Below, one piece after another: positions 23,646 through 64,000 of a stretch of 64,000 nucleotides of DNA. The stretch is from a virus. Position 1 is the first letter of the stretch, and every line of letters starts with the position of its first letter. The stretch covers positions 29,499 through 93,498 of IMG/VR virus record IMGVR_UViG_3300042339_000788; one strand, given 5' to 3'. Below the pieces are notes generated by a model that did not search any database, was not told where the DNA came from, and saw only the letters and a program-made list of their open reading frames with translations. The position numbers were made by a program, and so were the translations under genes.

Positions 23646-23646
23646 A

Positions 23647-43189: not shown

Positions 43190-43203
43190 AATTTAATTAT
43201 TTT

Positions 43204-44310: not shown

Positions 44311-44314
44311 ATCT

Positions 44315-44323
44315 TATAAATAT
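44315..44323 (-). promoter_or_regulatory. start-proximal ATATTTATA element
   Basis: On the coding strand ATATTTATA ends four bases before the ATG of paralogue 2. It is identical to the elements before the three TExQ-tagged genes and supports a late-gene role for the motif. Confidence 0.4.
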
Positions 44324-44328
44324 AAATT

Positions 44329-45468
44329 TTATGTTCTCCAACCGCAATGGCCTGATGATGTTCCATCATTTACTCCTGGCGCCAAACCACTAGGGTTTAC
44401 TGTACCAGTATCCGTAGTGTAACCAAATTTCCAACTAGTATTTACCTGTGCACCGTCATAACAACCTAACATATATTGATGATCTTGTCCCATTGTAAAG
44501 TTTTCTTCTCCGCAGTTAGGGTGTGGCTTTGCTACATTGCCAATATTTGTTTCTGTGAAAACATTCCATCTTCTTAAATTATAACCTCCGTTATATGTTC
44601 CTTCATTTCCCGCATAACCTTTACCCACCTTTGAACTAATACCTTTTTGTTGACCGCTCGCACCCCACTGCTGATTATTTGTGAATGTATCATTTGCGAA
44701 GAATAGTTTTGTACCACTTTGTTGTGTCCATCCATAACCATAATTCTCATCTGAAAATCCTGATGCACCAGAAGGGCCACTACCCGTGATTGATGATGTT
44801 GTTGTAATGTATGGGACACCTGCTTGATAGTAAACACTATACATTGTCTCGTTTGTTAAATTGAACTTCTCGACCGCAGCAACTCCAGCACCAAATATCC
44901 AAGCAAATTCCGTTTCTTGGTGTAAAGTACCACAATCATCTCTCGCGTTTGCTAAATCCCATTTGGTTTGATGAGCGTATGATGTTTCGTTTACCATATT
45001 AACACCACTTGTCCATGTTGAATGAATGGTGCTATCTCCTTTAAATGTACCATCGGTATTTGTTGACCATAGAAATAAAATACTTTTACTGCAAGCACCA
45101 GATGTATATGATGCTGGGTAATCTAATAATTCACCTAAGTGAACCGTTTGGTCTGTTGAATTTGTTGTTCTATGAACATTCTTCCATGGTGATGCGGATT
45201 TATAACCACCAGCTAAGTATGAGTAATTAATAACCTGTCTATATTTAAATCCTGTTCTATCTGTATTTTGTGAACCAACTGGTTCCCAACCACCATCATA
45301 ATTTGAAGATGCAGTATATGTAACTACAAAGCTACCACTAGTAGATTCTTCCAAATATAATGACCCAATATCAGGACTAGATGGCCTATTTGCTCGTGGC
45401 CCTCTTGGTATAATATATTGTCCACTAACATTTAAGGACCCACTAACTTCTACATTTTCTCTTAACAT
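44329..45468 (-). CDS. receptor-binding/tail-tip protein, paralogue 3
   Basis: A 379-residue protein. It keeps all conserved parts (RPSSPDIGSLYLEESTSGSF, NEGTYNGGYNLRRWNVFT, GTSSGHCGWRT) but has about 10 extra residues in the central variable part (YYQAGVPYITTTSSITGSGP). It is next to the long fibre gene, so the four proteins probably form one tail-fibre complex. Confidence 0.7.
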   Translation of the reverse strand: MLRENVEVSGSLNVSGQYIIPRGPRANRPSSPDIGSLYLEESTSGSFVVTYTASSNYDGGWEPVGSQNTDRTGFKYRQVINYSYLAGGYKSASPWKNVHRTTNSTDQTVHLGELLDYPASYTSGACSKSILFLWSTNTDGTFKGDSTIHSTWTSGVNMVNETSYAHQTKWDLANARDDCGTLHQETEFAWIFGAGVAAVEKFNLTNETMYSVYYQAGVPYITTTSSITGSGPSGASGFSDENYGYGWTQQSGTKLFFANDTFTNNQQWGASGQQKGISSKVGKGYAGNEGTYNGGYNLRRWNVFTETNIGNVAKPHPNCGEENFTMGQDHQYMLGCYDGAQVNTSWKFGYTTDTGTVNPSGLAPGVNDGTSSGHCGWRT

Positions 45469-45487
45469 ATTATATAATATACGGATT

Positions 45488-50492: not shown

Positions 50493-51056
50493 TTAAATTA
50501 AAGACCTAGGTTTGTCAATATTAATTCTATATTTCTGGCCATATGGGAACCCAACGTTCTTAACACCATCAATATTAAGGTAATCCACAACCCTTTGAAA
50601 CCCATTATTATAATATAATTCTTCGTATGATATTGTGAAATAATTTTTATTAATATAATTTTCTTTAATACCTTCTTTTATGTCATAAAGATAATCTAAC
50701 CCTACGGTTTGTTTTTTTTTCGACTTTTCTTCATAAACCCATGGCCTGTCCCAGTTATTTGTTGCAACAGCGTTTTCCCAGGAGAGTGATTGTTCATCTT
50801 CATTTTCTCTATAAAGAATAATGATTTTGTCTGATATATCTAATAAATCGGTATAATTTATTTCTTTTGAATAAATTTCCTTTATTAATAGATGTTCAGT
50901 TGTAAATTCCCAGTTTTGGGGTGGTATTTTGTTTTTATACCATTCTGACTTAATATTATACGGTTCATATAATACTGTGAAGTCCTTTCTTATGAAAAAC
51001 CAATTGGCCAAATTTGTAGATCCACTTCTAGGTTCACATAGTATTGTAATAATCAT
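50493..51056 (-). CDS. sulfotransferase-like protein with C-terminal LI
   Basis: A 187-residue protein. ILCEPRSGSTNLANWF is the 5'-phosphosulfate loop of PAPS-dependent sulfotransferases, and KIIILYRENEDEQSLSWENA is at the 3'-phosphate-binding position (Arg, Ser). It should transfer sulfate from PAPS. It is the last gene of the modification operon and ends PRSLI. Acceptor unknown; tyrosine or a sugar hydroxyl are both possible. Confidence 0.78.
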   Translation of the reverse strand: MIITILCEPRSGSTNLANWFFIRKDFTVLYEPYNIKSEWYKNKIPPQNWEFTTEHLLIKEIYSKEINYTDLLDISDKIIILYRENEDEQSLSWENAVATNNWDRPWVYEEKSKKKQTVGLDYLYDIKEGIKENYINKNYFTISYEELYYNNGFQRVVDYLNIDGVKNVGFPYGQKYRINIDKPRSLI

Positions 51057-51057
51057 T

Positions 51058-51465
51058 TTATATTAATTTATATTCATGTATATGGTTCTTCCCATAATTA
51101 CTAAACAACTCCTCATTTAATGAAATATCGGCCAACGCTTTAAATGTGAAACAATCAACCGTTCCGTTTTCAAAATTTGTATTAATATAATGATTTGTAC
51201 AACCATATACACACCCATTTGTAAGTTTAACTTTATACGGGTGGCCACGCATTGCTCTTATAAAATCTTGTAATTCCTCTGAAAAGGTATCAAACTCAGC
51301 TTTAGAAATTTCATATATGCCCGTTTTTCCTTGCCAAAATTCAAAAACGGTTTCACCCTTTTTAATATCTCTAATTGCAAAAACACCAACACCATGTACC
51401 CCACTTGGTTTAATTCTAGTCATTACACAATTTTTTAAAAAATCATATGGTGTTATATAATTCAC
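51058..51465 (-). CDS. SET-domain methyltransferase-like protein with C-terminal LI
   Basis: A 135-residue protein. MTRIKPSGVHGVGVFAIRDI and KKGETVFEF form the start of a SET domain; TNHYINTNFENGTVDCFTFK and ALADISLNEELFSNYG are the AdoMet-binding and catalytic Tyr motifs (NHxxxxN, then DYG-like NYG). It would methylate lysine side chains. No pre-SET zinc part. It ends EYKLI. It sits between two sulfotransferases. Confidence 0.8.
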   Translation of the reverse strand: MNYITPYDFLKNCVMTRIKPSGVHGVGVFAIRDIKKGETVFEFWQGKTGIYEISKAEFDTFSEELQDFIRAMRGHPYKVKLTNGCVYGCTNHYINTNFENGTVDCFTFKALADISLNEELFSNYGKNHIHEYKLI

Positions 51466-51470
51466 AATAA

Positions 51471-51968
51471 TTAAATTAGTTTTTTATTAAATTCACTTTT
51501 ATTCCCTTTTCGTAATCTTTTATCACTATTGACATCATATATGTCTTCATAATAAGTAATTGGAGTGTTAAGTTTATATGATAATTCATTCAAATCCTTA
51601 TTCCATTTTATTACATCATTATAACATAAATCAAATAACTTAGGTGGAACCTCTTCGTAATAATATTGATGATTTGAATTGTAATTTTTATTTTTTGAGA
51701 AGTAGGTTTGATATGCGTGGGATTCTACACATTGTAATATGTTTTTTCTAGATAATAATATTACCTCATCGAATTCTTTACTTAATTCAAAATTATTTGA
51801 GTGATGACATATGATCGTTTTAAGAACAATATTTTTTTCACCATTATATTTAAATCTACCGCTATTATCGAACGGTTCAAATATAGGAGTAAAGCCCTTT
51901 TCTTTTGCTAATTTATATAATAATGAAGTTGAGCCGGTTCTAGGTAATGCAACGATTAATATACTCAT
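51471..51968 (-). CDS. sulfotransferase-like protein with C-terminal LI
   Basis: A 165-residue protein. ILIVALPRTGSTSLLYKLA is the 5'-phosphosulfate loop, and FDEVILLSRKNILQCVESHA the 3'-phosphate motif (Arg, then Ser). It is shorter than the usual sulfotransferase. ATGA overlap with the upstream hydroxylase. It ends FNKKLI. Confidence 0.8.
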   Translation of the reverse strand: MSILIVALPRTGSTSLLYKLAKEKGFTPIFEPFDNSGRFKYNGEKNIVLKTIICHHSNNFELSKEFDEVILLSRKNILQCVESHAYQTYFSKNKNYNSNHQYYYEEVPPKLFDLCYNDVIKWNKDLNELSYKLNTPITYYEDIYDVNSDKRLRKGNKSEFNKKLI

Positions 51969-52552
51969 ATCAATGTTTTTTCAACTTTACGTTTTGGCCG
52001 GTCAGAATTGATGTTATCCATCCAAACATTTAACGCATATCGCGTACCATTTGTGACTGGTAGAACTCCATGATATGTTTTAAATCCATTAAAAGAAATC
52101 ATATCGCCAATTTTTAAATCATAAGTTGTAATGCCATCCATTTTATTAAAATGAATATCTGGAGTGTTACTATCACTTAATGCGAATTGACCACCTTCAA
52201 ACCCATTTGATAACACAATTACTGATGTTAACTCACTATCCGCATCTTTATGTAAATTTAGATACCTACCATTGTAATAAGATGTTAAACTAATGAGAAA
52301 ATTCTTTAGATTAAAATTATCAAAATCAAACCATAAATTAAAATTTCCAGTTTTATAATTATTCATTAATGAAGTAATTATTTGTTCCTTAAACCCCTCA
52401 TCATGTATGCGTCTACAATCCCATAATTCATTTGGGCGATATGAAAAAGGCTTACCGTGTTGAATACAAAAATTAATTATATCAGCACATTCGGTTTCTG
52501 TAAAAACATTATTATTTATTGAATAATTTATCATATATAAATAAATGAACAA
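51965..52552 (-). CDS. 2-oxoglutarate/Fe(II) oxygenase (prolyl-hydroxylase type) with C-terminal LI
   Basis: A 195-residue protein. The metal triad is readable in RYLNLHKDADSELTSVIVLS (H-x-D) and FKTYHGVLPVTNGTRYALNV (distal His, 2OG-binding Arg). It likely hydroxylates a peptide side chain. It ends VEKTLI. The gene follows the 48-residue peptide gene and the ATP-grasp/Hint gene. Confidence 0.8.
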   Translation of the reverse strand: MFIYLYMINYSINNNVFTETECADIINFCIQHGKPFSYRPNELWDCRRIHDEGFKEQIITSLMNNYKTGNFNLWFDFDNFNLKNFLISLTSYYNGRYLNLHKDADSELTSVIVLSNGFEGGQFALSDSNTPDIHFNKMDGITTYDLKIGDMISFNGFKTYHGVLPVTNGTRYALNVWMDNINSDRPKRKVEKTLI

Positions 52553-52569
52553 ACATTCATCTTTTTAAA

Positions 52570-52716
52570 TTATGATAAGTGTTTGTCTTTTATAGCAGTA
52601 ACAACAGCTTGGAATGCAGTTGATATTTTTGTCTTTATGTCAGCTGGTAATGAACTAATTATTGGTTTAATAACTGTTGCGGGTCTTTCTTGTCTAATTT
52701 TAGGGGTCTTTGCCAT
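52570..52716 (-). CDS. 48-residue peptide next to the Hint protein gene
   Basis: From ATG at 52716 to TAA at 52570. It begins MAKTPKIRQERPATVIKPI and ends in an amphipathic helix (KTKISTAFQAVVTAIKDKH). It lies between the Hint protein and the first downstream hydroxylase, 35 bases after the Hint stop. It could be a substrate, an adaptor or a regulator of the island. No family recognised. Confidence 0.55.
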   Translation of the reverse strand: MAKTPKIRQERPATVIKPIISSLPADIKTKISTAFQAVVTAIKDKHLS

Positions 52717-52751
52717 GATATATTTTTATTTTATATTTTTTATTAAAATTA

Positions 52752-54251
52752 TTAAGGAACAAATTTTTGTTGTCCGCCACCACCCCATGCACAAGTTGGG
52801 CAATAATATGAATAACAATAATTACCACAATAAGACCAACTACACCAACAACCGTTGTGCATTACACTAAAATCTCCATCCCCAATATCAACTAAGAATA
52901 AGTCAGATGGCGCAAAATCAAGTGTATAAATTGTTTTAGTTTCATATATCATTTCTAAACCACTAATTAGAACCGTTGTTAATTCATTAGTGTTTGAATC
53001 GGTTATTACCAATTTATCTCCAACATATAAACTATTTACCTTTTCAAATCTGGTTGCTGTTGAATCTTTTTCTTCAATATAATATACACACGCGGGGGTG
53101 TCTGACCAACTTCTACCATCTTCTAATGTTATTTGTATCATTACCGTTTCTACTTGTGTTGACACCATGTTCTGTAAACCAGACGATACCTGTGTTAATG
53201 TGTCGTTTGATTGTTGAAGTGTACTATCCCAACCATATGTATTAATTTCTGGTGTAAAAGATGCCGCTTCGTTTTCATTTGAATCTACAAAATTAATAGA
53301 TCGGACATAGTCACCTAATTGTATTGTGCTAACATTTGTTAATGTACCATCATAATTCAAAATGTTTGATTCGTCATCTGTGTGATAATCATTTCCCGAT
53401 CCTTTACCCACCTCTTTAGTGATATATTTGTATCTACTTTTTTGGTTTAATTTTTTTGTACCGGAAACGAATTCGGTAGCAGCAAACGAAACTGGGATTA
53501 CCGCAGATTGTGTGTACCCACCCATATTAATAATGTCCAAATTCGAACCGTATATAATATCAATTCCTCTTATAATTGAATACTTACCATCTACCAAGTT
53601 ATCTTCTGAAAATATAAATTCTTGAACTAAGAAATTATTTTCAGCAGAATTTATTGTGTCAACTAATTCGGTATTATTTGAAACCGCGTATAGCGCTGGA
53701 TATTTCATTTTATCATATTGTGGATAACGATATTTTATCAACACATTTGGATTTGTAGTATCACTATAGTCAACATCATCCAAAGTATTTACATTTAACG
53801 TATCCGAGATACAATGTGTTTTGGGAATATGTTGTGAATCTTTCATTAAATTAAAAAATTCAAACTTATCGGCGCAGTATGTTTCGTCTACTAATGCTGT
53901 GGTATCAAAAGCCTGTCTTAAAATAAATTTATTATTGGCGTCTTCAATAAATGGTACCGTTACTGAATTCATCGGTACTATATGGTCAGTATATGATATG
54001 TTATTTTCTGCACATTTTATTTGTAATATTTGTCTAAATCTATGTGTTTGATTTATAGGGCTATACGCGACGCCTTCTGTCCATATATAATGAAATTCAG
54101 TAATATTATTACTATTTAATACATCAAATAATGCATCATAATCTAATAAATCCGCTCCATCATTATATATTGTGGTGTTTGTGTTTATCTCCAAAAATTT
54201 AACATTATCATCTTTTTGTAAAAAATCACTACCAATTATTGTTGCTTTCAT
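52752..54251 (-). CDS. ATP-grasp-like/Hint protein with Cys-Tyr-Trp-rich C-terminal tail
   Basis: A 499-residue protein. Residues 1-265 look ATP-grasp-like, with VKFLEINTNT (E21, N23) at the start, where normal members carry it at the end, so possibly circularly permuted; ILRQAFDTTALVDETYCADK and NNFLVQEFIF follow. Residues about 295-466 form a Hint (intein-like) domain: DGTLTNVSTIQLGDYVRSIN, LEDGRSWSDTPACVYY, VGDKLVI, and DGDFSVMHN ending at N466. After HN comes a 33-residue tail with six Cys (468, 470, 475, 479, 484, 487), five Tyr and GGGG. The Hint N-terminal Cys is missing and the block-B His is replaced, so cleavage is uncertain. Confidence 0.65.
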   Translation of the reverse strand: MKATIIGSDFLQKDDNVKFLEINTNTTIYNDGADLLDYDALFDVLNSNNITEFHYIWTEGVAYSPINQTHRFRQILQIKCAENNISYTDHIVPMNSVTVPFIEDANNKFILRQAFDTTALVDETYCADKFEFFNLMKDSQHIPKTHCISDTLNVNTLDDVDYSDTTNPNVLIKYRYPQYDKMKYPALYAVSNNTELVDTINSAENNFLVQEFIFSEDNLVDGKYSIIRGIDIIYGSNLDIINMGGYTQSAVIPVSFAATEFVSGTKKLNQKSRYKYITKEVGKGSGNDYHTDDESNILNYDGTLTNVSTIQLGDYVRSINFVDSNENEAASFTPEINTYGWDSTLQQSNDTLTQVSSGLQNMVSTQVETVMIQITLEDGRSWSDTPACVYYIEEKDSTATRFEKVNSLYVGDKLVITDSNTNELTTVLISGLEMIYETKTIYTLDFAPSDLFLVDIGDGDFSVMHNGCWCSWSYCGNYCYSYYCPTCAWGGGGQQKFVP

Positions 54252-54284
54252 AAAATTTTATTTCTCATTTTCATTTATTGTGTC

Positions 54285-54304
54285 TTAGTTATAAATATAA
54301 CTAA
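54285..54304. repeat. 20-bp perfect palindrome upstream of the Hint gene
   Basis: TTAGTTATA-AA-TATAACTAA, arms of 9 bp, 34 bases upstream of the Hint ATG. It includes ATATTTATA on the coding strand. This is the only free gap of about 100 bases in the island, so an operator or promoter is plausible. Confidence 0.5.
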
Positions 54305-54348
54305 CCACCATTTTAAACTAAGTATATAGATATATAGATATATATCGT

Positions 54349-54651
54349 CTAAATTAAAGTGTTCTCACTTTTATCTTCAAGTGGTTTTAAATAGCCTGAA
54401 TCAATTTCGCCCCAAAATTTTTCTGGGCACGCATTATAATCTGTTGAAAAAACTTTCTTATTTAGGGGACATCCACATTTATTACAAAAAACACTCCATT
54501 TTAACCCTTTTATCATTTCTTTTCTATGGTCACAGCCTAAACAAAAATCCAGTCTTAGTTTAGCCAATTCTTCTTGTCTGATAGTTGGATTTAAGGAAAT
54601 CTTCCAAGCCTCAAATATTTTTTTATAATCAATCTTAGGGGTATTAATCAT
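54349..54651 (-). CDS. zinc-ribbon protein with C-terminal LI
   Basis: A 100-residue protein. FCLGCDHRKE, CNKCGCPLNKKVF and NACPEKFWG give five or six Cys in zinc-ribbon spacing. Small proteins with C-GCPL...CP-xxx-W motifs are found beside radical-SAM genes in phages. It ends ENTLI. It may deliver a metal or act as an adaptor; no enzyme motif is visible. Confidence 0.7.
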   Translation of the reverse strand: MINTPKIDYKKIFEAWKISLNPTIRQEELAKLRLDFCLGCDHRKEMIKGLKWSVFCNKCGCPLNKKVFSTDYNACPEKFWGEIDSGYLKPLEDKSENTLI

Positions 54652-55376
54652 ATTAATGTTTTATTATTTTTTTGGATATCGTAATAATCATAAATATCGT
54701 TATATCTCCGTATGAAATCGTCATTCAATTTTAAATTACAATCAAAATGTTGACTCCCATTTGATTTTTCCATTTTAAATGGTTTACCAGTTTTATTAGA
54801 CACCCATTCTTCCAATTCTTCAAAATTTCCAAATTCGAACCATTTTATTTTTTGATTATTGTTGTGCCAATGTGATATAGGTCTAAATAAAATTAATAAC
54901 ATATTTTTCATATAATCATTAAAATATTTTTCAATTTTGTTTTTTTTTGCAAATTCAAACATTAATAATTCTTGAGATTTTATGGAAATTAAATCTAAAT
55001 CTTTAAAAAATAATATGTCCTCTAAACTTAATTTTTTTAATATGTTAGTTAATTCCTTTGGGTATAACATATAAGTTAAATCAATTATATGTTTCCATAA
55101 TGAAATAAATCTTTCATGTTTATTTCGTCTAATTGAAATTATATCATATTCATCACCAAATTTCATAGTTAAATCAACTAGTCTTTCGTGACTATGAACA
55201 ATATTGTCGGCCAAATCTTCATTGGTTAGAGATAAATCTATTTTATCTTGGTAACTATCTATTAATAGTTGGTCAAAGTGTTTTATTATAAATCCACTTC
55301 GTATGCAGGACATATAAAAAGATGTTGATGCGCATCTTGGTAATGATATAAATAAAAATTTATTTTCCACTAACAT
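54648..55376 (-). CDS. sulfotransferase-like protein with C-terminal LI
   Basis: A 242-residue protein. FLFISLPRCASTSFYMSCIR is the 5'-phosphosulfate loop, and YDIISIRRNKHERFISLWKH the 3'-phosphate motif. It is the longest of the three sulfotransferases and the closest to the bacterial/viral Sulfotransfer_2-type layout. It ends NNKTLI and overlaps both neighbours (ATGA upstream of the zinc ribbon). Confidence 0.78.
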   Translation of the reverse strand: MLVENKFLFISLPRCASTSFYMSCIRSGFIIKHFDQLLIDSYQDKIDLSLTNEDLADNIVHSHERLVDLTMKFGDEYDIISIRRNKHERFISLWKHIIDLTYMLYPKELTNILKKLSLEDILFFKDLDLISIKSQELLMFEFAKKNKIEKYFNDYMKNMLLILFRPISHWHNNNQKIKWFEFGNFEELEEWVSNKTGKPFKMEKSNGSQHFDCNLKLNDDFIRRYNDIYDYYDIQKNNKTLI

Positions 55377-56014
55377 TATATTAACGATTTTTGATTTTTA
55401 ATATAATCAAACCCCACATTACCGGCCATAACAATTCTGTCCAGTGTTGAATTCGGTGCAGTATTTGGTGAGTGTGGAACATCGGCTTCCATTATGATTA
55501 AATCATCTTCTTCTGGTCTGATCCAATACTCCTTATCATCTTTACCTAAAAAATACAATACACCATCCTCATCATTCATTACGTCTGGCATTTGAATATA
55601 ATAAACATAGGTATAATGTGGGGTGAAGAGTTTATTTGATTTATTTATTTCAGTATGTATATGGTGTTTTTTATCTCCATAAAAATTCCCTTGTACCGGA
55701 TTTTTTGAACGAACAACATTAACCCACGCATCCGTATTAATTTTATTATAATTTATGTTTTTTTCATTATAGATTTCTTTACACTTATCAACACCAACCT
55801 GAACTATTTCGTCTAATTTTGTTTCTATTTTAAAATTACCAATAAAATTTAAATTTTCGTTCCATTCTTTTTTATAACCAAACCCATCTGTTTTAACATC
55901 AGGTAAAGATTCAATAACAGAATATGCTTCTTCTAAAAATAATGGTTTATCTTCTGTGCGATTTAGTTTTGTTTTCCATATATAAGTGGCTTCATCAAAA
56001 TATATTTTTTCCAT
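55376..56014 (-). CDS. 2OG/Fe(II) oxygenase-like protein (HxE variant) with C-terminal LI
   Basis: A 212-residue protein. HHIHTEINKSNKLFTPHYTY gives H-x-E in place of H-x-D; VPHSPNTAPNSTLDRIVMAG gives the distal His and the Arg. Glu as ligand is seen in some branches of this superfamily, but activity is less sure. It begins one base before the stop of its upstream neighbour and ends NQKSLI. Confidence 0.72.
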   Translation of the reverse strand: MEKIYFDEATYIWKTKLNRTEDKPLFLEEAYSVIESLPDVKTDGFGYKKEWNENLNFIGNFKIETKLDEIVQVGVDKCKEIYNEKNINYNKINTDAWVNVVRSKNPVQGNFYGDKKHHIHTEINKSNKLFTPHYTYVYYIQMPDVMNDEDGVLYFLGKDDKEYWIRPEEDDLIIMEADVPHSPNTAPNSTLDRIVMAGNVGFDYIKNQKSLI

Positions 56015-56015
56015 A

Positions 56016-56633
56016 TTATATTAAATTATTTTGGTTATTATTTTTGGCAACTAAATCAAAATTAATCACATATCTATCAGTTATAGTTGGGTATTCTCCG
56101 TAGTGATGAATATTACCATCAAATATAACGGCTCTTCCTTTTTTTGGTTGTATTTTATTTAGTGTTTCAAACCCATCAACATTAATACTTTTAAAATTGT
56201 GTTGAAGAAATTCCCCTGTATTTCCCATTTTATTATTTAAAAAAACGGTATTACCATCGGTGTTATTTATATAATAAACTATAGCAATATGATCCACACT
56301 CATATCAACATGAATTAAATTTTTAAAATCATAACTTTCACTTATGGGTGTTGTCCAGTTTATTTTACACCTATAATCTCTTTCAAATTTCATATTAAGT
56401 TTATTGAGTAAATTTAACTTTATGGAATTTATTATATTAATAATATCGGTATTATCAATGTCAACACCTTTTAGTACATTTGCGGGTAATTTTAATGATT
56501 CGGTTCCACCATAAAGCCCTGTAATATTATGTTGGTAATTCCATTTTAGGTTTGAAATTTTTACATAGTTTTCTAATTTAGTTTGGTCTGATTCTGGAAT
56601 TATATTATCAAATACTTGATACCCGTTTATCAT
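56016..56633 (-). CDS. 2OG/Fe(II) oxygenase with C-terminal LI
   Basis: A 205-residue protein. NLIHVDMSVDHIAIVYYINN (H-x-D) and VIFDGNIHHYGEYPTITDRY (distal His, Arg) complete the triad. It starts MINGYQVFDNIIPESDQTKL, the family's usual N-terminal layout. It ends QNNLI. Confidence 0.8.
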   Translation of the reverse strand: MINGYQVFDNIIPESDQTKLENYVKISNLKWNYQHNITGLYGGTESLKLPANVLKGVDIDNTDIINIINSIKLNLLNKLNMKFERDYRCKINWTTPISESYDFKNLIHVDMSVDHIAIVYYINNTDGNTVFLNNKMGNTGEFLQHNFKSINVDGFETLNKIQPKKGRAVIFDGNIHHYGEYPTITDRYVINFDLVAKNNNQNNLI

Positions 56634-57193
56634 ATTAAATTTTGTTTTTTTGAATCGGTTTTAATTAATCTTATCCAATTTACTAATGAATAACGCACCC
56701 CTTCAACTATAGGTACCACTCTATGAAGTAACCTTGAATTAAAAATATACAACGTGCCTATTTTATTCTTTATTGGCACAATCTCCCCTTTACTATTTTT
56801 AATCTCTAATATTCCACCGATATAGTTATCATTTAACTGAATTACTATTGATGCAAATCTATCTCTATATAATAAATCGGTACTATCAACATGCCAATCA
56901 AAGTATTCATTTTCTTTATATTCGGTGAATTGATAATCACCCAAACCAGTAACCTCCATTCCGTTAATATTGAACGACTCCCTTAATTTGTTTATTAATC
57001 TTTCATTTAAAAATCCCAAATCAGATACCCAAGCAATAGACGATTTCCTACGTATATTTTCAATATTTTCACGATTTTTATTATTATATACTTTAGCTGA
57101 TTCTAATGTTAATTCACTCTTACATTTCTTTAAAATGATGTCACATTCTTCAGGTGATAGAAAGTTTTCAAATATGTCTATATTATCAATCAT
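56630..57193 (-). CDS. 2OG/Fe(II) oxygenase (P4H/PiuC type) with C-terminal LI
   Basis: A 187-residue protein. EYFDWHVDSTDLL (H-x-D) and NSRLLHRVVPIVEGVRYSLV (distal His, Arg), with YIGGILEIKN between. This is the best match of the five to the prolyl-4-hydroxylase fold. It ends KKQNLI. ATGA-coupled on both sides. Confidence 0.83.
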   Translation of the reverse strand: MIDNIDIFENFLSPEECDIILKKCKSELTLESAKVYNNKNRENIENIRRKSSIAWVSDLGFLNERLINKLRESFNINGMEVTGLGDYQFTEYKENEYFDWHVDSTDLLYRDRFASIVIQLNDNYIGGILEIKNSKGEIVPIKNKIGTLYIFNSRLLHRVVPIVEGVRYSLVNWIRLIKTDSKKQNLI

Positions 57194-57678
57194 ATTAGTG
57201 TTTTTTCTTTTTTTCGTTTTTTATTATAAAACGAAATCAAACTAAAACGTTCGTTTTTTGTTATTTTAAGGACTCGATGCCTAACTTTATTATCGATAAA
57301 TAAACTTACATTTCTTATAGGTTTAATCTTAAGTAAGTTTTTATTTTCAATATATTCAAATTCTCCTCCGTCAAATGTGTTATTTATGTATGTTATAATT
57401 GTTAAATCACACGCATCATTATGATATTCATCATCAATATTTGTATTAACAGTTACTTTGTTAACCCATAAACCAAATAACTCATATTCATCGTTTATTA
57501 AGTCTTCACAATTTTTTTGGTATTCTAATAAATCTTTTTCAATATCTAATATTTTTCTAATGTAGTAGTTATGCTTGTTTTTAATACTATGAGTTTCCGT
57601 TTCTACGAAATTTATACACACCGAGTCCAAAAAAAATAGTTCTTCTTCAGATAAGAGATTTTCATATGTGCTAACCAT
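57190..57678 (-). CDS. 2OG/Fe(II) oxygenase with C-terminal LI
   Basis: A 162-residue protein. DDEYHNDACDLTIITYINNT (H-x-D) and DNKVRHRVLKITKNERFSLI (distal His, Arg). FDGGEFEY is the conserved turn of the jellyroll. It ends KEKTLI. It begins 9 bases after the DUF2061 gene, so it is probably in the same operon as the PAPS genes. Confidence 0.82.
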   Translation of the reverse strand: MVSTYENLLSEEELFFLDSVCINFVETETHSIKNKHNYYIRKILDIEKDLLEYQKNCEDLINDEYELFGLWVNKVTVNTNIDDEYHNDACDLTIITYINNTFDGGEFEYIENKNLLKIKPIRNVSLFIDNKVRHRVLKITKNERFSLISFYNKKRKKEKTLI

Positions 57679-57687
57679 AACATTTTA

Positions 57688-57897
57688 CTATTTTTTAAGC
57701 CCATACTTAATCCATCTATACCATACTCTTTCATGTATATAATATTGGATGGGTTTATAGATCAATTCCGCCACCCCAAATGCAGCACCAAATTTAATTG
57801 ATCCACTTATTAACCACATCAATAAGAATCCAATTAAGGTACTTACAATTCGATATGAGATGGTTTTAGCAATGTGTCTCTTCTTTTCTACTATCAT
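57688..57897 (-). CDS. DUF2061 membrane protein
   Basis: A 69-residue protein. HIAKTISYRIVSTLIGFLLM and KPIQYYIHERVWYRWIKYGL match DUF2061, which in bacteria occurs next to or fused with CysC/CysN sulfate-activation enzymes. Two membrane spans. Its overlap of one base with the nucleotidyltransferase supports a sulfate-activation role, maybe membrane attachment of the module. Confidence 0.82.
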   Translation of the reverse strand: MIVEKKRHIAKTISYRIVSTLIGFLLMWLISGSIKFGAAFGVAELIYKPIQYYIHERVWYRWIKYGLKK

Positions 57898-58277
57898 TAT
57901 CCCTTTGTTTGATCATATTTAATTTCACCGTCGGGTGTCATGTGGCCAGTTCTAATTGCTGTACCACTAATCGTTGCTATCTCAGTTGGTGGTTCGTGGT
58001 ATATTACATCATAACCAACCCCTCTACCATAATTAATGCTCTCAATATCAGGAATAATTGATATGTTAATTCTTTGTGAATTTTCTCTAAAGAAAGGTTC
58101 TTCACTTAGATCCATCATAACTTGCTGTGCGGTCTTAGGGTTATTTTCATCCGTTGGCACGTTCCTAATTGCAACCCACACATCTTTTCCTTTATCTAAT
58201 TGTTGGTTAATAAGCCATTCGTGGCCCTTATGCCAATTTTGCCAACGCCCCACATACATTGCGTATTTTTTACTCAT
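57897..58277 (-). CDS. nucleotidyltransferase, ATP-sulfurylase-like
   Basis: A 126-residue HIGH-type nucleotidyltransferase. YVGRWQNWHKGHEWLINQQL holds the H-x-G-H motif. VWVAIRNVPTDENNPKTAQQ is in the middle, and ISGTAIRTGHM near the end is the ISGTxIR motif. It belongs to the compact adenylyltransferases found with APS kinase. I infer that it makes APS from ATP and sulfate, but NMN- or other nucleotide transfer cannot be ruled out. Confidence 0.7.
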   Translation of the reverse strand: MSKKYAMYVGRWQNWHKGHEWLINQQLDKGKDVWVAIRNVPTDENNPKTAQQVMMDLSEEPFFRENSQRINISIIPDIESINYGRGVGYDVIYHEPPTEIATISGTAIRTGHMTPDGEIKYDQTKG

Positions 58278-58708
58278 AATGATAATTTTTTTAACAGTTC
58301 ATAATATGAATCTGTTTCGTTTTTTATTGTTGTGTCTATATCTATAAAATTTTCTAATGGTGGTTCATATTCCTCAACATGGAATTGATTCCTACCTCTA
58401 TCTTCTGTAGTGTGAACATAAATCTCAACAACCGATGTGCTGAACTTAAATGCCTCTCTTTGATCTCTATACGGTGAAACTAGGGATACAATAACATTGT
58501 GTCCTTTACTATGCATAAATTGCGCAATGTATTGTGCTCTCTGGATGTTTAGTCTTCTTCCTGTAATGGAATAGTCTTTATTCTTAAAGATGTCTCTTAG
58601 ATCATCCCCATCGATATGAGTGACCTCATCTTTTGGGAAGTATTCCACCAAGTATTTTGCAAGGGTTGTTTTACCTGCTCCGGGTTGTCCTGTTAACCAG
58701 TATATCAT
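58274..58708 (-). CDS. cysC: adenylylsulfate (APS) kinase
   Basis: A 144-residue protein. YWLTGQPGAGKTTLAKYLV is the P-loop. THIDGDDLRDIFKNKDYSIT, GRRLNIQRAQYIAQF, NVIVSLVSPYRDQREAFKFS and ENFIDIDTT complete the CysC set (the substrate Arg and Asn in NIQRA). The product, PAPS, is the donor for the three sulfotransferases of the island. ATGA overlap with the nucleotidyltransferase. A promoter-like site just upstream suggests that it heads the operon. Confidence 0.93.
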   Translation of the reverse strand: MIYWLTGQPGAGKTTLAKYLVEYFPKDEVTHIDGDDLRDIFKNKDYSITGRRLNIQRAQYIAQFMHSKGHNVIVSLVSPYRDQREAFKFSTSVVEIYVHTTEDRGRNQFHVEEYEPPLENFIDIDTTIKNETDSYYELLKKLSL

Positions 58709-58712
58709 AATG

Positions 58713-58744
58713 ATAATATACCTAAAACAAGTTGAAAAGTCAAT
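58713..58744 (-). promoter_or_regulatory. Bacteroidota-type promoter of the sulfation/hydroxylation operon
   Basis: On the minus strand ATTG (58741-58744), 20 bases, TATATTAT (58713-58720). It is 5 bases before the cysC ATG, so the mRNA would be nearly leaderless. It would drive cysC through 57190 and perhaps further. Confidence 0.58.
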
Positions 58745-58746
58745 TT

Positions 58747-59970
58747 TTAATCAATAAAAATATCACCTAACCATGGGCATATTTCCTTATAATCGGTTTT
58801 ATTAATTTCGTCAAATCTCCTTAAGGTTTCCGGTAGTGAAATAGTAACATATTTCTTCTTATCTAATAGGTGGCTATAAACTTCCTCATCCTCAGTGTTT
58901 CTTAAATATTTAACAAATTCAATCAACGTATATCTACAAAGTGATGTTAAATTGTTTATGTTGTTTTCATAAAGTTCTATTAACGCTTGTTTCATGCCAC
59001 CCTTACAAATTCCAGGTGCAAAATAAAAAGGTTGAGTCACAGTATGAAACCTAATGTGATCTGAATGGAGGTAATTTTCTTCAACAAACTTTATGAAATC
59101 AAAAGAATGGTACATGTTTATTGTTGAAATAGTATAATCAATAGAAACTTTGAAATTGTCGTTGGTTTCTTTAAACTTAATTAGCGTTTCCAGATTTTTA
59201 AAGAATTTTTCAGAATTAAATCCTGGTCTTTGATATTCACCAATTTTACCATACCCATCACATGAACAAGAAATATCTACAGTTTTAAAACGTTTAAGTT
59301 TATCAAGTATGTCAATACCTTTGTATGTTAGTGTGGATAAGTTTGTATTGATTAATATATAAACCTTTTTAGCCTGTTCATCACTGAATCTATCTAACAA
59401 GGTAAATGTTGTTGGTGTTATAAATGGTTCACCACCAGCTAAATAAACTTTACGAATAGAATCAATATTTTCTTCTGAAAACTTATCAAGAGCGTCGTCA
59501 CCCGCTGTTAAGTACTTGGTATTGATGGTATCATATTCTGGTTGATTTTGAACATAACCCCAATACTCAAACCAGGTTGATGATGACCCATGAAAACACA
59601 TTCTACATTTAAAGTTACAATGATTAGAAAGTCTCAAATCTGTGTAAACAATTTTGTTTACACTATAGTCTTCATTATATAGTGATGGGTCCGCTATTTC
59701 TTCTCTAAACTCAATGTTACTATGCTCTTTGTGTCTATTTTTATAAACAAAACATTCCGCACATTCAGATGGCGCAATATTAGATAACATCTCTTTTCTA
59801 ATACGTTTATATGGTTCACTATTAATTGCTTCATCAACAGAATTGAAATCCTTGAAATGAATATTCTCTTTAAATGGAGAAGCCACACAACAAGGTGATA
59901 GTGTGCCAGATGCCCCAACATAAATTGAACCAAAGGGTAAATAACAAAATTTCTCTGAGATGGTATTCAT
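58747..59970 (-). CDS. twitch-type radical-SAM protein
   Basis: A 407-residue protein. The N-terminal part has the twitch-domain Cys (C9, CC at 27-28, C70, C73), then the radical-SAM NHCNFKCRMCFHGSS (C118, C122, C125), VYLAGGEPFITPTTFTLL, and a C-terminal CPW. Enzymes of this layout (N-terminal auxiliary cluster domain) are frequent in marine phages and bacteria; their substrates are unknown but probably peptides or proteins. One-base overlap with the next radical-SAM gene. It ends GDIFID, without the LI ending. Confidence 0.85.
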   Translation of the reverse strand: MNTISEKFCYLPFGSIYVGASGTLSPCCVASPFKENIHFKDFNSVDEAINSEPYKRIRKEMLSNIAPSECAECFVYKNRHKEHSNIEFREEIADPSLYNEDYSVNKIVYTDLRLSNHCNFKCRMCFHGSSSTWFEYWGYVQNQPEYDTINTKYLTAGDDALDKFSEENIDSIRKVYLAGGEPFITPTTFTLLDRFSDEQAKKVYILINTNLSTLTYKGIDILDKLKRFKTVDISCSCDGYGKIGEYQRPGFNSEKFFKNLETLIKFKETNDNFKVSIDYTISTINMYHSFDFIKFVEENYLHSDHIRFHTVTQPFYFAPGICKGGMKQALIELYENNINNLTSLCRYTLIEFVKYLRNTEDEEVYSHLLDKKKYVTISLPETLRRFDEINKTDYKEICPWLGDIFID

Positions 59971-61268
59971 TACAATAATTTTACATTATCATCTTTTGGT
60001 AATTCAATGATAACATTTGGATCGATAAAATCTCTAAACTCAGTAAACACAGAAAAGAAATCATCACCTCTGAATGTGTCAACCATGTCTGTCATTTTTA
60101 AAAACTTTTGGAACATTTCTTCGTCTCTTTCTTGATTTAACAAGTCTATTACAAATTCAAATTGTCCTATATCTCGTTGTGCTTCACTGTTATCCGCTAT
60201 GTTATTTTTTATCCAAATTATAAGGTTATTATACAATATTCTAAGAACCTCTTTATGTCTTTCAGGTAGCATTTTTATCTGAAGGTGTTCTGGATGTGTC
60301 AATAAATTAATATGAATTTTACCAGGAAGTAAGTAGCCATTTTCTATCCAATTTTTATATAAATCAATTATGGTATAGCTATTCATTATGTTAATTGTTG
60401 GTACAATTCCAAAAAAAGTATCTGGTAGTTCTCTCAAAAGTGTTTTTCTATTCTCAACTATTTCAGACCATTTTGATCCACTTCTAAGATATTGGCCTCT
60501 CTCTTCAAAACCATCTATACTTGCTGTTATCTCAACGGCTTTGAACTTCTTCCACATCTCAATTATATTATAATCTTTATAATATAATTTTGTGAAATTG
60601 GTTGTAACCCACACTGTTATATTTTTAGCATAGTCATTGTCTATGCAGTATTGTAATATTTGATAATGTTTATCTTGTGTTAATGGTTCGCCACCAGCAA
60701 AAAATAATGACTTAACATGCTTTAATTGGCTTAAAATAAAATTAAACTCATCATCATCAACCGACATACTATATGGTTGACCATAATCTTTAAAATTATT
60801 GAAGCCTAACGCTTTATACTCTTTATATAATGATGATGAAAAACCGGGATTACAAATCCTACATTTTAAATTACATTTATTATCAAAACGTAGATCTAAG
60901 TGTTTAAATTGTATTATTTTTAATGAAAAATCTTCATTTGTGTTTTCCACAATGTTTTCTATTTCATCTTCAAACTGTTTGTTTAAATTAAATCTGTAAC
61001 TATCAACTTGGCTCTTCCCTTTTGAAACCTCTTCTCTATACCAGCAAATTTGACACTCGTTTATCTTCTCACCATTCCACAATCTTTTTCTAACATCCTT
61101 TGCAACATCAGAATTATACATTTCATTTAATGGAACGCCTTGCTTAAGTTCTCCGAAAACTCGTTCTTGTTTATATAAACAACAAGGTACAACATTTCCA
61201 AATGTACTTAAATGTGAAGCAATCCATGGAGCAACACAAAAGGTTTCTTCGTTATAATTTTTTTCCAT
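59970..61268 (-). CDS. twitch-type radical-SAM protein
   Basis: A 432-residue protein. Twitch Cys C11, CC at 29-30, C72, C75; the core is LDLRFDNKCNLKCRICNPGF (C132, C136, C139), and LFFAGGEPLTQDKH is the AdoMet GGE. It resembles the gene at 58747 in plan but differs in sequence, so different substrates are likely. It ends NVKLL, close to the LI ending. Confidence 0.85.
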   Translation of the reverse strand: MEKNYNEETFCVAPWIASHLSTFGNVVPCCLYKQERVFGELKQGVPLNEMYNSDVAKDVRKRLWNGEKINECQICWYREEVSKGKSQVDSYRFNLNKQFEDEIENIVENTNEDFSLKIIQFKHLDLRFDNKCNLKCRICNPGFSSSLYKEYKALGFNNFKDYGQPYSMSVDDDEFNFILSQLKHVKSLFFAGGEPLTQDKHYQILQYCIDNDYAKNITVWVTTNFTKLYYKDYNIIEMWKKFKAVEITASIDGFEERGQYLRSGSKWSEIVENRKTLLRELPDTFFGIVPTINIMNSYTIIDLYKNWIENGYLLPGKIHINLLTHPEHLQIKMLPERHKEVLRILYNNLIIWIKNNIADNSEAQRDIGQFEFVIDLLNQERDEEMFQKFLKMTDMVDTFRGDDFFSVFTEFRDFIDPNVIIELPKDDNVKLL

Positions 61269-62741
61269 TTAATTTAATTCATTTTTTTGTCTGGCATTAT
61301 TTCTAGCCATAATGTCTGGTTTATACTCACCAAGCTCCCAACCTTCCATACCACCACCAGACAATTTAACATCTGGTATATAGTTGTCTATTTGAATAGA
61401 ATCGTACCAATCAACTAACATTGGAAATGTTTTTCTAAAGTCTTTGTTCCTTCTGATATCATATTGTACATAAAAACTTTTGAAATCATGGAAGTGTTTA
61501 TCTTTATCGAACTCAGCTCTAGCGTGTCCTTGATCAACAACATCAATGTAATCAATTACTCTTTGAGTTTGTGTTATCTCATGTTCTAATAATAAACCAG
61601 AATCTCTGTTCTTATCTAACCAAACTTGAATTTTATTTTTAGCTTCAATCTTAATATTATCTGGTAAATTTAATGGTGACATAAATCCTGGCCATCTTAA
61701 GAAGTTAAGATCCATTGTTGGTTTATTAGGGCCATACTTTTTCTTTAACTCCAACATATCATCCATGAACTCAGTAATAGACATTAATGATAAACCAGTC
61801 ACAGTCATCATGATTACAATTTGTCTAATGTTCGCTTCTTCAATCATTCTAACAACATTACCTCTCCATTTTGGATAAATCAAACCATCTCTAAGATATT
61901 CAGCATGATCACCATATGATTCACAACTTGTATAGATATCATATGATTGAATATCTAATTCGTGTGTTGTTCTAATTAATTTATCGATCAATTCATCTTT
62001 AACACCTAAATTAGAATTTATTGATAGATTCAACTTAGGATATGATTGGCCCTTAATTTTATCTAGGAATTTCCAAAAGTTATGACTCGTTGATGGTTCC
62101 CCGCCAGTGATTCTTAATGTTTGTAAATCTTTTGATAAGTCTGGCCACCATTCTAGGAATGCCGTAACGTATGGGTTATCACCAATAAATTTATTTTCAG
62201 GATCTGCCCATGAACCATTTTGTTGATATGCACCGGCAGTTAATGTTTTAAACTTTTGATATGGACCATGTTCGTCAATATCTCTACCCCAAGTTGTTGA
62301 ATAACTTGGATTACAATATGAACAAGCAAAATTACAACTTCTATCAAATGATAATTCAACAGTTCTTAAATTAACATCAGCATCCCATGGTAGATCTTTT
62401 AACATGTCAATATCTTCATGTTTATATTCCATGCTTCTATATACTCTATCTGATATGTTATTTCTACCAATATCTTCTACCTTCCAACAATAAGAACATT
62501 CGGCTGGTCTAATACCTGATAACATCATTCTTCTCATTTTCTTTTTATGTGAAGTATTATGTAATGCCGATGGGTTTGTTTTAATTTCCTCCAAATCAAT
62601 TGGGTGAGGTAATGGTAGGAAACATGACCTACTATACCCACTACCTAAATCAATAGTTGCGTTATACCACTTGGCAGGACAGAAGCTACAGCTAACTGAA
62701 TCTAATTTTTCTTCTTTAAATTTTAATAGTCTTTCTGACAT
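61269..62741 (-). CDS. twitch-type radical-SAM protein
   Basis: A 490-residue protein, the longest of the four. N-terminal Cys C18, C21, C40, C82, C85; the core is LSFDRSCNFACSYCNPSYST (C136, C140, C143), and LRITGGEPSTSHNFWKFL carries GGE. An extra C-terminal region of about 90 residues ends ARNNARQKNELN. One-base gap to each neighbour. Confidence 0.85.
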   Translation of the reverse strand: MSERLLKFKEEKLDSVSCSFCPAKWYNATIDLGSGYSRSCFLPLPHPIDLEEIKTNPSALHNTSHKKKMRRMMLSGIRPAECSYCWKVEDIGRNNISDRVYRSMEYKHEDIDMLKDLPWDADVNLRTVELSFDRSCNFACSYCNPSYSTTWGRDIDEHGPYQKFKTLTAGAYQQNGSWADPENKFIGDNPYVTAFLEWWPDLSKDLQTLRITGGEPSTSHNFWKFLDKIKGQSYPKLNLSINSNLGVKDELIDKLIRTTHELDIQSYDIYTSCESYGDHAEYLRDGLIYPKWRGNVVRMIEEANIRQIVIMMTVTGLSLMSITEFMDDMLELKKKYGPNKPTMDLNFLRWPGFMSPLNLPDNIKIEAKNKIQVWLDKNRDSGLLLEHEITQTQRVIDYIDVVDQGHARAEFDKDKHFHDFKSFYVQYDIRRNKDFRKTFPMLVDWYDSIQIDNYIPDVKLSGGGMEGWELGEYKPDIMARNNARQKNELN

Positions 62742-62742
62742 C

Positions 62743-64000
62743 TTATATTAATTTTGTTGTTTTTGTAATATTATATATTTCTTCTAAATCCGCAAATGTA
62801 TCAGCAAAAGATTCATTCCTTAAAATGTCTAATGCTAATGTTTGTCTCTTAAATTCTTGCCAATCGCCTTGTGTACCCTCAACAGGTAATTTTAATGTGT
62901 TTATAACTTTATGTGCTTGCCTCATTACATCCCTTCTATATTGTTTTTCAGAATCATCTATTGTTGTATCATCATTAATTTGTAAAATCCTAAGATTATA
63001 TTCGGATTCAAGTTTTTCTAAAATAAGTTTTTTACACTTCTCTGGCATATATCCAATATGTAAGTGTCTAGGGTTGTAAACAAAAGCTATCATTAATTTT
63101 AAATGATTCTCAATAACAAAATCAACCATCTCAAAAACATAAAGAACATTTAGCATTGATATAGTACAACACACCTCAAAGATTATTTTATGGTCTGGAA
63201 TTAATTTAACTTTATTTTGCCAAATATTAATATTTTCACTAACCACATCCCATTTACCAAAATGTCTTAAATAGTTGAATCTTTTACCAACACCATCAAT
63301 ACTAAAACCAATTCTACACTGTTCAAATGAGCTTAAAATATCAATATATTTCTCATTTATAATTGTGCCGTTTGTATTAAAACTCATTTGTTGTGTTTTA
63401 GAATATCCTAACTTAACGGACATTTCTAAAATCTCCCATTGCTTTTTCATCAACATTGGTTCACCACCATATATGTCTAAACTTCTAACTTCAGGAAGTA
63501 TACTCATTAATTCAGCCCAAACAATACTATTGTCTCTAAATGCTTTTGAATATTTATCTACATAATAGTCTAATCTTTCTTCGGTCACATCGGTTTCTGT
63601 TACATGATGAAAGTCTTTCCATTTTGATGATGCAGATATATGACATATTCTACATGCGAGATTACATGTGTTACCAAGATTTAATTCTAAAAAAAATAAA
63701 TCAGAATCTTTTCTTTCTGGATATAATTCAAGAGTAGTCTTATATGTTTCATTATCTCTTTCTCGTTTGCTAACAAATCCAGCATCTTCTGCTGACCAAC
63801 AAACAACACAAGCCGGATGCCTAATATCATTTTTAAAATCATCTAACATTTTCATTCTAGTTGGGCTTTTTAGCCCTTCTTCAATTGAATGTGTGCTAGC
63901 TAACATTTCATCACCATTTTCATCTTTAAATGGGTTATTAAACGTGTGACAACACGCAAAATAGCCCCCAGATGTTGCTATTCTAAAACCGTTTGTTAGA
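62743..64000 (-). CDS. twitch-type radical-SAM protein with C-terminal LI (N-terminus cut by window edge)
   Basis: The frame stays open from the first internal ATG (63906) to the window edge. The extra codons read a twitch-type N-terminus (LTNGFRIATSGGYFACCHTF), so the true start lies outside the window. Core LELNLGNTCNLACRICHISA, then LDIYGGEPMLMKKQWEIL. It ends ITKTTKLI, the only one of the four radical-SAM proteins with the LI ending. It is the first gene visible of the radical-SAM array. Confidence 0.85.
   Translation of the reverse strand, partial: LTNGFRIATSGGYFACCHTFNNPFKDENGDEMLASTHSIEEGLKSPTRMKMLDDFKNDIRHPACVVCWSAEDAGFVSKRERDNETYKTTLELYPERKDSDLFFLELNLGNTCNLACRICHISASSKWKDFHHVTETDVTEERLDYYVDKYSKAFRDNSIVWAELMSILPEVRSLDIYGGEPMLMKKQWEILEMSVKLGYSKTQQMSFNTNGTIINEKYIDILSSFEQCRIGFSIDGVGKRFNYLRHFGKWDVVSENINIWQNKVKLIPDHKIIFEVCCTISMLNVLYVFEMVDFVIENHLKLMIAFVYNPRHLHIGYMPEKCKKLILEKLESEYNLRILQINDDTTIDDSEKQYRRDVMRQAHKVINTLKLPVEGTQGDWQEFKRQTLALDILRNESFADTFADLEEIYNITKTTKLI

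Follow-up and report, generated by a model that had tools for sequence, protein, structure and literature searches.

Several kinds of C-terminal address tags are known, including encapsulin cargo peptides, microcompartment peptides, PTS1 and PDZ ligands. In the maturation of quinohaemoprotein amine dehydrogenase, the radical SAM enzyme QhpD and the flavin enzyme QhpG act on a small Cys/Trp-rich subunit, and to our knowledge no C-terminal tag is shared in the QhpD/QhpG system. Trp halogenases also occur in phages, and VirX1 of phage Syn10 is reportedly an example from cyanophages. For the cyanophage clusters of halogenase and 2-oxoglutarate (2OG) oxygenase genes, capsule decoration or a secondary metabolite has been proposed as their role in the sections of PMC7824862 drawn on here. 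The sections used of PMC10858898 describe peptidyl Trp halogenases of ribosomally synthesized and post-translationally modified peptides (RiPPs), namely SrpI, which acts on the proteusin SrpE, and MibH, with the leader bound via a RiPP recognition element (RRE) or directly by the enzyme. Here we analysed 64,000 nucleotides of viral DNA (positions 29,499 to 93,498 of the IMG/VR record IMGVR_UViG_3300042339_000788, hereafter the window), in which an island of tailoring genes at 50493-63906 encodes unrelated enzymes that share a short C-terminal tag, together with a 499-residue protein of predicted ATP-grasp and Hint domains (the ATP-grasp/Hint protein).

This island and its relatives resemble each of these systems in part. 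As in the SrpI and MibH pathways, in those sections of PMC10858898, they combine a flavin halogenase and other tailoring enzymes with a C-terminal peptide that is gene-encoded, contains Cys and Trp and follows a long folded region, which would be the leader. In the precursor-like layout here, a Cys/Trp/Tyr-rich tail, recognised by pattern in 80 of 83 distinct complete relatives, comes after a folded ATP-grasp/Hint region. Unlike in the RiPP halogenase pathways, the unrelated enzymes all bear one C-terminal tag, and modification of the peptide is what we infer. Like the clusters in those sections of PMC7824862, they bring a phage-borne Trp halogenase and several 2OG oxygenases together; unlike them, they have the tag and the ATP-grasp/Hint gene. 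The halogenase and 2OG homologues of five cultured marine phages (HTVC008M, P-SSM2, Syn10, S-SCSM1 and S-RSM4) were untagged, save one 2OG protein ending KIV; homologues outside such islands mostly end differently. A search of 50,697 named phage records gave no match to the ATP-grasp/Hint protein, and no relative of sulfotransferase A was found in named phages. As with the known address tags, a flexible tail with a handful of terminal residues would gather unrelated enzymes. The motif is different, and in six island-holding phage records, possibly fragments, neither encapsulin (PF04454) nor bacterial microcompartment (BMC; PF00936) shell proteins nor PDZ domains (PF17820, PF13180) were found, while the PDZ models matched in 14 of 14 control genomes. 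Leader recognition by a PqqD-like RRE is common, not universal, in RiPP biosynthesis; the PqqD-type RRE (PF05402, the sole RRE model tried) matched in none of these six records and in 3 of 14 controls. These searches covered candidate receptors of the tag. Radical SAM and flavin enzymes with a small Cys/Trp-rich candidate target recall Qhp maturation, and one phage halogenase gave weak, sub-cut-off matches to QhpG, LodB and GoxB. No description of the tag was found in open-licence papers. Address tags are long established as a principle; that a whole set of unrelated phage enzymes relies on one, with this partner, has no counterpart found in that literature, and on a stricter view it could be another form of C-terminal docking tag.

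The first-pass annotation of the window had named eleven open reading frames (ORFs) of the island as ending in Leu-Ile after Lys, Thr, Ser or Asn. All eleven exist, with the ends SLI, KLI, KLI, TLI, TLI, TLI, SLI, NLI, NLI, TLI and KLI in order of position, and the Leu, Ile and stop codons at the tag vary as described there. ORFs of at least 40 residues were called over the whole 93,498-bp record by a greedy, simple caller, some of whose calls are surely spurious. LI ends were found in 11 of 19 island ORFs and in 2 of 133 ORF calls elsewhere in the record (Fisher p = 3e-10), one ORF being counted twice where pieces overlap. Under a wider rule, any two of L, I and V, the counts were 12/19 and 11/133. 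LI ends as common elsewhere in the genome would have pointed to an artefact; they are rare outside the island. The proteins at 57688, 57897 and 58274, the 499-residue protein and the 48-residue peptide lack the tag, as noted in that annotation. It had also grouped the first three as suppliers of 3'-phosphoadenosine 5'-phosphosulfate (PAPS), which suits the APS kinase at 58274 (PF01583); the protein at 57688 is instead a DUF2061 protein, and the nearest relatives of the one at 57897 are NMN adenylyltransferases, far below the cut-off. The features of the island are as follows (window coordinates).

50493-51056, minus strand: sulfotransferase-like protein of family B, tail ..KPRSLI (family-B profile match)
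51058-51465, minus strand: SET-domain protein, tail ..EYKLI (PF00856, E 1.3e-7)
51471-51968, minus strand: sulfotransferase-like protein of family B, tail ..FNKKLI (family-B membership and profile)
51965-52552, minus strand: 2OG-Fe(II) oxygenase, tail ..KVEKTLI (PF13640, E 2e-8; merged 2OG family)
52570-52716, minus strand: conserved 48-residue peptide (..IKDKHLS), untagged, adaptor or substrate candidate (follows Hint genes in relatives)
52752-54251, minus strand: 499-residue protein with ATP-grasp domain, Hint domain (end VMHN) and Cys/Trp/Tyr-rich C-terminal peptide, untagged, proposed receptor and substrate (predicted models, tail alignment)
52755-52853, minus strand: C-terminal peptide GCWCSWSYCGNYCYSYYCPTCAWGGGGQQKFVP after the Hint end HN, candidate modified core (alignment of tails)
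54349-54651, minus strand: 100-residue zinc-ribbon-like protein, tail ..KSENTLI (conserved Cys pairs; no Pfam match)
54648-55376, minus strand: sulfotransferase-like protein of family A with LPRCAST loop, tail ..KNNKTLI (motif only; no Pfam match above cut-off)
55376-56014, minus strand: 2OG-Fe(II) oxygenase-like protein, tail ..KNQKSLI (PF13640, E 0.0014, below cut-off)
56016-56633, minus strand: 2OG-Fe(II) oxygenase-like protein, tail ..NQNNLI (PF13640, E 7.6e-5, below cut-off)
56630-57193, minus strand: 2OG-Fe(II) oxygenase, tail ..SKKQNLI (PF13640, E 3e-13)
57190-57678, minus strand: 2OG-Fe(II) oxygenase-like protein, tail ..KKEKTLI (PF03171, E 1.2e-4, just under cut-off)
57688-57897, minus strand: DUF2061 membrane protein, untagged control (PF09834, E 3.4e-16)
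57897-58277, minus strand: nucleotidyltransferase, NMN adenylyltransferase-like, untagged control (NCBIfam, E 3.7e-5, far below cut-off)
58274-58708, minus strand: APS kinase (PAPS supply), untagged control (PF01583, E 3.8e-17)
58747-59970, minus strand: twitch-type radical SAM/SPASM protein, untagged, end ..IFID (NF033640, E 5.6e-79)
59970-61268, minus strand: radical SAM/SPASM protein, end ..NVKLL (wider motif)
61269-62741, minus strand: radical SAM-like protein, untagged, end ..NELN (PF04055, E 3.1e-5, below cut-off)
62743-63906, minus strand: twitch-type radical SAM protein, tail ..KTTKLI (NF033640, E 9.9e-76)

The last of these genes runs off the end of the record (window 62743-63999) and its relatives have 424 residues; position 63906 is probably not its true start, which would lie beyond the record end. 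The sulfotransferase assignments come from short matches: the family-B profile matched the LPS sulfotransferase NodH (9vki, E 3.5e-4) over 35 residues only, and the family-A profile gave just a 59-residue match to zeta toxin (E 0.0022).

Relatives were collected from 2.9 million viral contigs. Scans with the sulfotransferase, the radical SAM protein and the 499-residue Hint protein gave 15, 13 and 53 loci, and 80 of the 348 relatives from a wider Hint-protein profile were kept. Clustering into families used 1,802 distinct proteins from 138 sources; the loci overlap and some contigs are near-identical, so the counts of distinct proteins below are not independent. Families took their names from representatives; for the zinc ribbon and sulfotransferase A, conserved residues were the sole basis. 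The strict Leu-Ile end did not hold in the relatives, which end in two of L and I (sometimes V, M or F), usually after T or S, with Lys at -4 and -7. We dropped the strict rule for a degenerate motif, K-x-x-K-[T/S]-[L/I]-[I/L]-COOH, which closes a Lys/Asn-rich tail. The protein at 59970-61268, which ends KLL and had been left out before, fits this wider motif. Among 172 representatives (below 60% identity) of 11 tagged families, -7 is Lys in 89, -4 is Lys or Asn in 119, -3 is Thr or Ser in 105 (Lys in 30, Asn in 20), -2 is Leu or Ile in 163 and -1 is Ile or Leu in 165. Thr or Ser at -3 is rare in the SGNH (2/21) and sulfotransferase-B (7/28) families.

The motif is common to 11 sequence families: three of 2OG oxygenases, two of sulfotransferases, the Trp halogenase, SGNH hydrolase, methyltransferase and zinc-ribbon families and two others. 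Ends of the [LIV][LIV] type were found in 147/148 proteins of the merged 2OG family, 60/63 of the second 2OG family (relatives of 55376) and 15/15 of the third (relatives of 56016), in 79/80 and 69/69 of sulfotransferases A and B, and in 47/48 Trp halogenases, 54/64 zinc ribbons, 48/54 SGNH hydrolases and 10/11 methyltransferases; a 416-residue family (16/16) and a DUF6734-like family (12/12) complete the set. Enzymes that make co-substrates, like most other phage families in these loci, are without the tag. It was seen in 0/80 Hint proteins, 0/59 of the 46-residue peptides, 0/34 DUF2061 proteins, 0/29 nucleotidyltransferases and 1/27 APS kinases.

The tag rate was high whatever the distance to the next gene: 311/327 for overlapping genes, 135/139 at 0-15 nt, 30/34 at 16-40 nt and 84/91 beyond 40 nt. 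A gap of 97 nt separates the zinc-ribbon-like gene at 54349-54651 from the next gene. Both codon boxes of Ser (AGY and TCN) are used at -3, the Leu codons at -2 are near general usage, and Ile at -1 is ATA in 77% of cases against 42% internally, as ATGA overlaps require. [LIV][LIV] pairs have an internal frequency of 5%, and the same test shifted by one to seven residues gave 3-7%. Since the tag does not need a downstream overlap and Ser occurs in both codon boxes, selection acts on the protein. The tag is real and is selected as protein, of which we are virtually certain.

The tag follows the ATP-grasp/Hint gene. Among distinct plus-strand proteins of at least 80 residues, 524/595 within 2.5 kb of this gene and 59/302 at 5 kb or more ended [LIV][LIV], those in between being left out. 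Two whole records (251 and 289 kb), with genes between the near and far zones again left out, gave 10/13 and 7/12 near the Hint gene (up to 4 kb) and 14/244 and 15/342 far from it. Ten distant tag-like proteins, hand-picked as such and thus no fair sample, were compared with Pfam: two are SGNH proteins, one each is a B12/radical SAM protein, glycosyltransferase, carbamoyltransferase, DUF6734 protein and Clp-type ATPase, and three had no match. A second comparison started from a profile of Trp halogenases, built on 12 tagged and 2 untagged rows. The best 80 of at least 591 relatives were kept, and 79 of these 80 loci had a halogenase ORF with a stop. The halogenase was tagged in 31 of 32 loci with the ATP-grasp/Hint gene and in 1 of 16 loci without it (5 kb on both sides), which is an association and not a set of independent trials. 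Short-flank loci without the Hint gene had 11/31 halogenases tagged, all 11 with less than 1.9 kb after the halogenase; such flanks would often stop short of the Hint gene. In the Hint-positive exception, locus L200, the halogenase ends NQLF and its 2OG-like and zinc-ribbon-like neighbours (named by eye from their N-termini) end GLF and TLF. The ends at L200:5097-10835 are GLF, QLF, TLF, TLM and SFI instead of -LI, with one ILI, possibly a co-ordinated tag switch within one phage.

The two LI proteins outside the island of the original record both precede the window (in L002). One is a 712-residue B12-binding/radical SAM protein (PKKLI; G000:C1:19487-21625) and the other, of 385 residues (TNLI; 22549-23706), clusters with an in-island protein of L008. 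The B12/radical SAM protein of phage G001 ends KITKLI. Relatives fetched for the 712-residue protein are mostly untagged: [LIV][LIV] ends occurred in 3 of the 77 distinct long ORFs listed, some of which are not this enzyme. The three are KVKVI in L265, and TKLI and RKLI in two phages carrying the Hint gene.

In the ATP-grasp/Hint protein (52752-54251), the N-terminal 289 residues are predicted to form an ATP-grasp domain of the glutathione-synthetase/YgiC type (model pLDDT 91). The model gave VIA Z scores of 10.5 to YgiC (214 residues, 4.0 Å) and 10.3 to yeast glutathione (GSH) synthase, with a Foldseek E of 9.1e-5; it also resembles glutathionylspermidine synthetases, and tubulin-tyrosine ligase and RimK with lower Z scores. 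The profile of the domain matched nothing in Pfam and PDB beyond RimK at E 0.063, and no sequence relatives were found in PDB up to E 10. E21, N23 and K173, which we take to be the equivalents of GSH synthetase ligands, are invariant in 65 aligned rows. The next part has a predicted Hint/intein fold (inteins and hedgehog matched in Foldseek with a best E 1.6e-6; the model has a mean pLDDT of 60), and its terminal His-Asn, H465 and N466, is invariant in 30 aligned sequences. The usual N-terminal Cys/Ser of Hint domains seems replaced by His290 in an alignment by eye, and only C-terminal cleavage would remain. After the His-Asn comes the Cys-rich tail, e.g. GCWCSWSYCGNYCYSYYCPTC, with three exceptions: L005 has a differently spaced Cys tail, L026 a second Hint domain and L204 none. 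The proteins of L005, L078 and L204 run on into a virion-type stretch matching phrog_6121, a virion structural protein (E 7e-8, 2.4e-8 and 3.2e-12). Peptidase_S74 was below the cut-off in L005 and gave no match in L078, and a solved-structure search with the L078 tail found nothing. In bacterial and archaeal (GTDB) genomes, 79 pattern hits to Hint-protein relatives were obtained, none of them confirmed.

Some further observations were made on these proteins. The relative at L026:18057-19949 is diverged, and its second Hint domain, in place of the Cys-rich peptide, is canonical (end VHNK). The ends of many Hint proteins consist of Lys and a single aliphatic residue (PKL, QKI, EKV, AKL) and form another recurrent type, unlike the enzyme tag. 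Small ORFs that are Hint-like by eye lie near tag-bearing genes in record G007 (L247/L248; 3594-4082, 21194-21625 and 21607-22074).

In the 38 loci whose flanks were long enough and whose core could be recognised, the tail peptide co-varied with the enzyme repertoire beyond N-domain distance (partial Mantel r 0.37, p 0.0005), and the Hint domain did so less (r 0.165, p 0.0025). Within this set, CWCS cores occurred in 0/26 loci with a halogenase and in 8/12 without; L123, outside the set, has both a CWCS core and a halogenase and is a counter-example. The 46-48-residue peptide follows 74 of 78 distinct Hint genes. Of the four loci without it, L019, L022 and L204 still have tagged genes, which disfavours this peptide as the only receptor, and L026 has one such end among five neighbours. 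L204 lacks the Cys-rich peptide as well and keeps tag-like ends, which disfavours that peptide as the only reason for the tag. Because L204 is tagged without both peptides, and L019 and L022 without a recognisable 46-residue peptide, what they best have in common is the ATP-grasp/Hint protein, which was chosen as the proposed receptor.

The first-pass annotation had proposed that the tag gathers tailoring enzymes on a substrate, scaffold or virion part. A shared protein-level tag on unrelated tailoring enzymes is borne out by the distance, whole-record, codon/overlap and partner-gene tests, which do not separate the Hint protein, a fibre and a scaffold from one another. One rule fits the split between the families, in that tagged enzymes are those expected to act on a macromolecule and untagged ones make co-substrates, and a C-terminal docking tag is its simplest cause. 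Docking of some kind is very probable. A short linear tag at the end of a Lys/Asn-rich tail would mark the enzymes that share one macromolecular substrate, and the glutathione-synthetase-like domain (or the Hint domain) would hold their tails. We lean slightly towards the ATP-grasp/Hint protein as the receptor and, with a similarly slight preference, towards its C-terminal peptide as a main substrate. The oxygenases, sulfotransferases, halogenases and radical SAM enzymes would then modify the peptide, rich in Cys, Trp and Tyr, that follows the end of the Hint domain (HN|xCWC..) and whose Trp, Tyr, Ser and Cys side chains would suit halogenation, sulfation, hydroxylation and cross-linking. That a docking tag brings peptide-modifying enzymes to the ATP-grasp/Hint protein, taken as a whole, we put at an even chance. 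This would amount to a RiPP-like maturation of a virion-type protein, with the recognition tag on the enzymes and the receptor on the substrate. More tentatively, we suggest a phage-encoded protein-decoration system of inverted recognition: substrate-acting enzymes of any fold would bear the tag, the ATP-grasp/Hint protein would read it while itself bearing the modified peptide, perhaps displayed on the virion, and new enzymes could join by gaining the tag. If this is true, sequence alone would predict which enzymes of uncultured phages share one target, even those encoded far from the island. It would also point to a plug-in assembly of protein-modifying enzymes, testable and reusable, and give a testable substrate for such halogenase and oxygenase clusters in aquatic phages.

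Several results weigh against docking on the ATP-grasp/Hint protein. The radical SAM families are mixed, with [LIV][LIV] ends in 19/45 and 21/30, and two of these proteins in the island are untagged. Tag-like ends also appear in a family that is HAD-like by eye and looks unrelated to tailoring (6/6, NKLL etc.) and in the non-tailoring Clp-type ATPase, and a 211-residue family ends E[IV]V in 4/4. The one tagged halogenase among the 16 full-flank loci without the gene is that of L203 (end PII); its record, G007 of 74.6 kb, has further LI-type ends with no ATP-grasp/Hint match. Within families the tagged enzymes are related by descent, and the query for halogenases contained both tagged and untagged rows, so these counts are not independent. 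The co-variation of peptide and repertoire may reflect local recombination, and the tags of L204 indicate that the Cys-rich peptide is not the sole target everywhere. Co-ordinated evolution of the tag letters within loci was also tried and came out weak, with p values for the last residue of 0.055, 0.036 and 0.003 at three redundancy levels.

The same docking tag could address another phage partner: the 46-48-residue peptide acting as an adaptor, a tail fibre, or, in a mutual complex, the other tagged enzymes. We consider this unlikely, though it deserves attention. The small peptide's place after most Hint genes, the fibre-like genes that adjoin the island (window 42080-50416) and the tagged B12/radical SAM and SGNH genes far from the island would all suit it. 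The tagged loci without a recognisable small peptide, L019, L022 and L204, argue against the adaptor, and the halogenase/2OG loci of cultured marine phages are without the tag even though three lie beside annotated tail-fibre or fibre-assembly genes.

That the tag addresses something of the host, be it a PDZ protease, a chaperone, a membrane or a compartment, and in this way sets the place or stability of the enzymes, is improbable. A C-terminal [ST]-x-hydrophobic end does resemble PDZ ligands, and since the six phage records yielded no PDZ domain, any PDZ partner would be host-derived. Such a factor would not account for the untagged nucleotidyltransferase, DUF2061 protein and Hint protein of the same islands or the single tagged APS kinase of 27; moreover, the tag tracks the ATP-grasp/Hint gene, and distant genes are at background level in the two records examined whole.

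In a covalent variant, to which we give little credence, the ATP-grasp domain would ligate the free C-terminal carboxylate of the tag, joining the enzymes to a carrier or capping them. The motif ends exactly at the carboxylate, and the domain resembles the glutathione and glutathionylspermidine synthetases and, more distantly, tubulin-tyrosine ligase and RimK, the last two of which act on protein C-termini. This is offset by the absence of Pfam or PDB profile matches beyond the marginal one to RimK, and the Gly-rich loop of known GSH synthetases is presumably missing in this domain.

That the tag is an artefact of AT bias, of ATGA overlaps or of a signal for translating the next gene is extremely improbable: the ATA enrichment at -1, the 32% GC of the window and the somewhat less AT-rich control loci without Hint (30-41% GC against 26-33% in Hint loci) would suit it, whereas the tag rate is high regardless of overlap, the Ser codons at -3 fall in both boxes and the Leu codons at -2 are near normal, only 6/138 neighbours in full-flank, no-Hint halogenase loci end in this way and the distant genes of the tagged phages themselves are as rarely tagged as given above, so that it was rejected on the distance, codon, overlap, whole-record and no-Hint-locus counts together.

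Two minor observations concern annotation and neighbouring genes. In S-SCSM1, the 2OG-oxygenase homologue at NC_070962.1 176023-176505 is called 'ferrochelatase' in RefSeq and '2OG-Fe(II) oxygenase' in GenBank MK867354.2. At 42080-45468 of the window lie three tandem paralogues of 368-379 residues with near-identical ends (GTSSGHCGWR), which adjoin a 1642-residue fibre-like protein; the paralogue at 44329 matched phrog_1417, with a weak match to a virion structural family.

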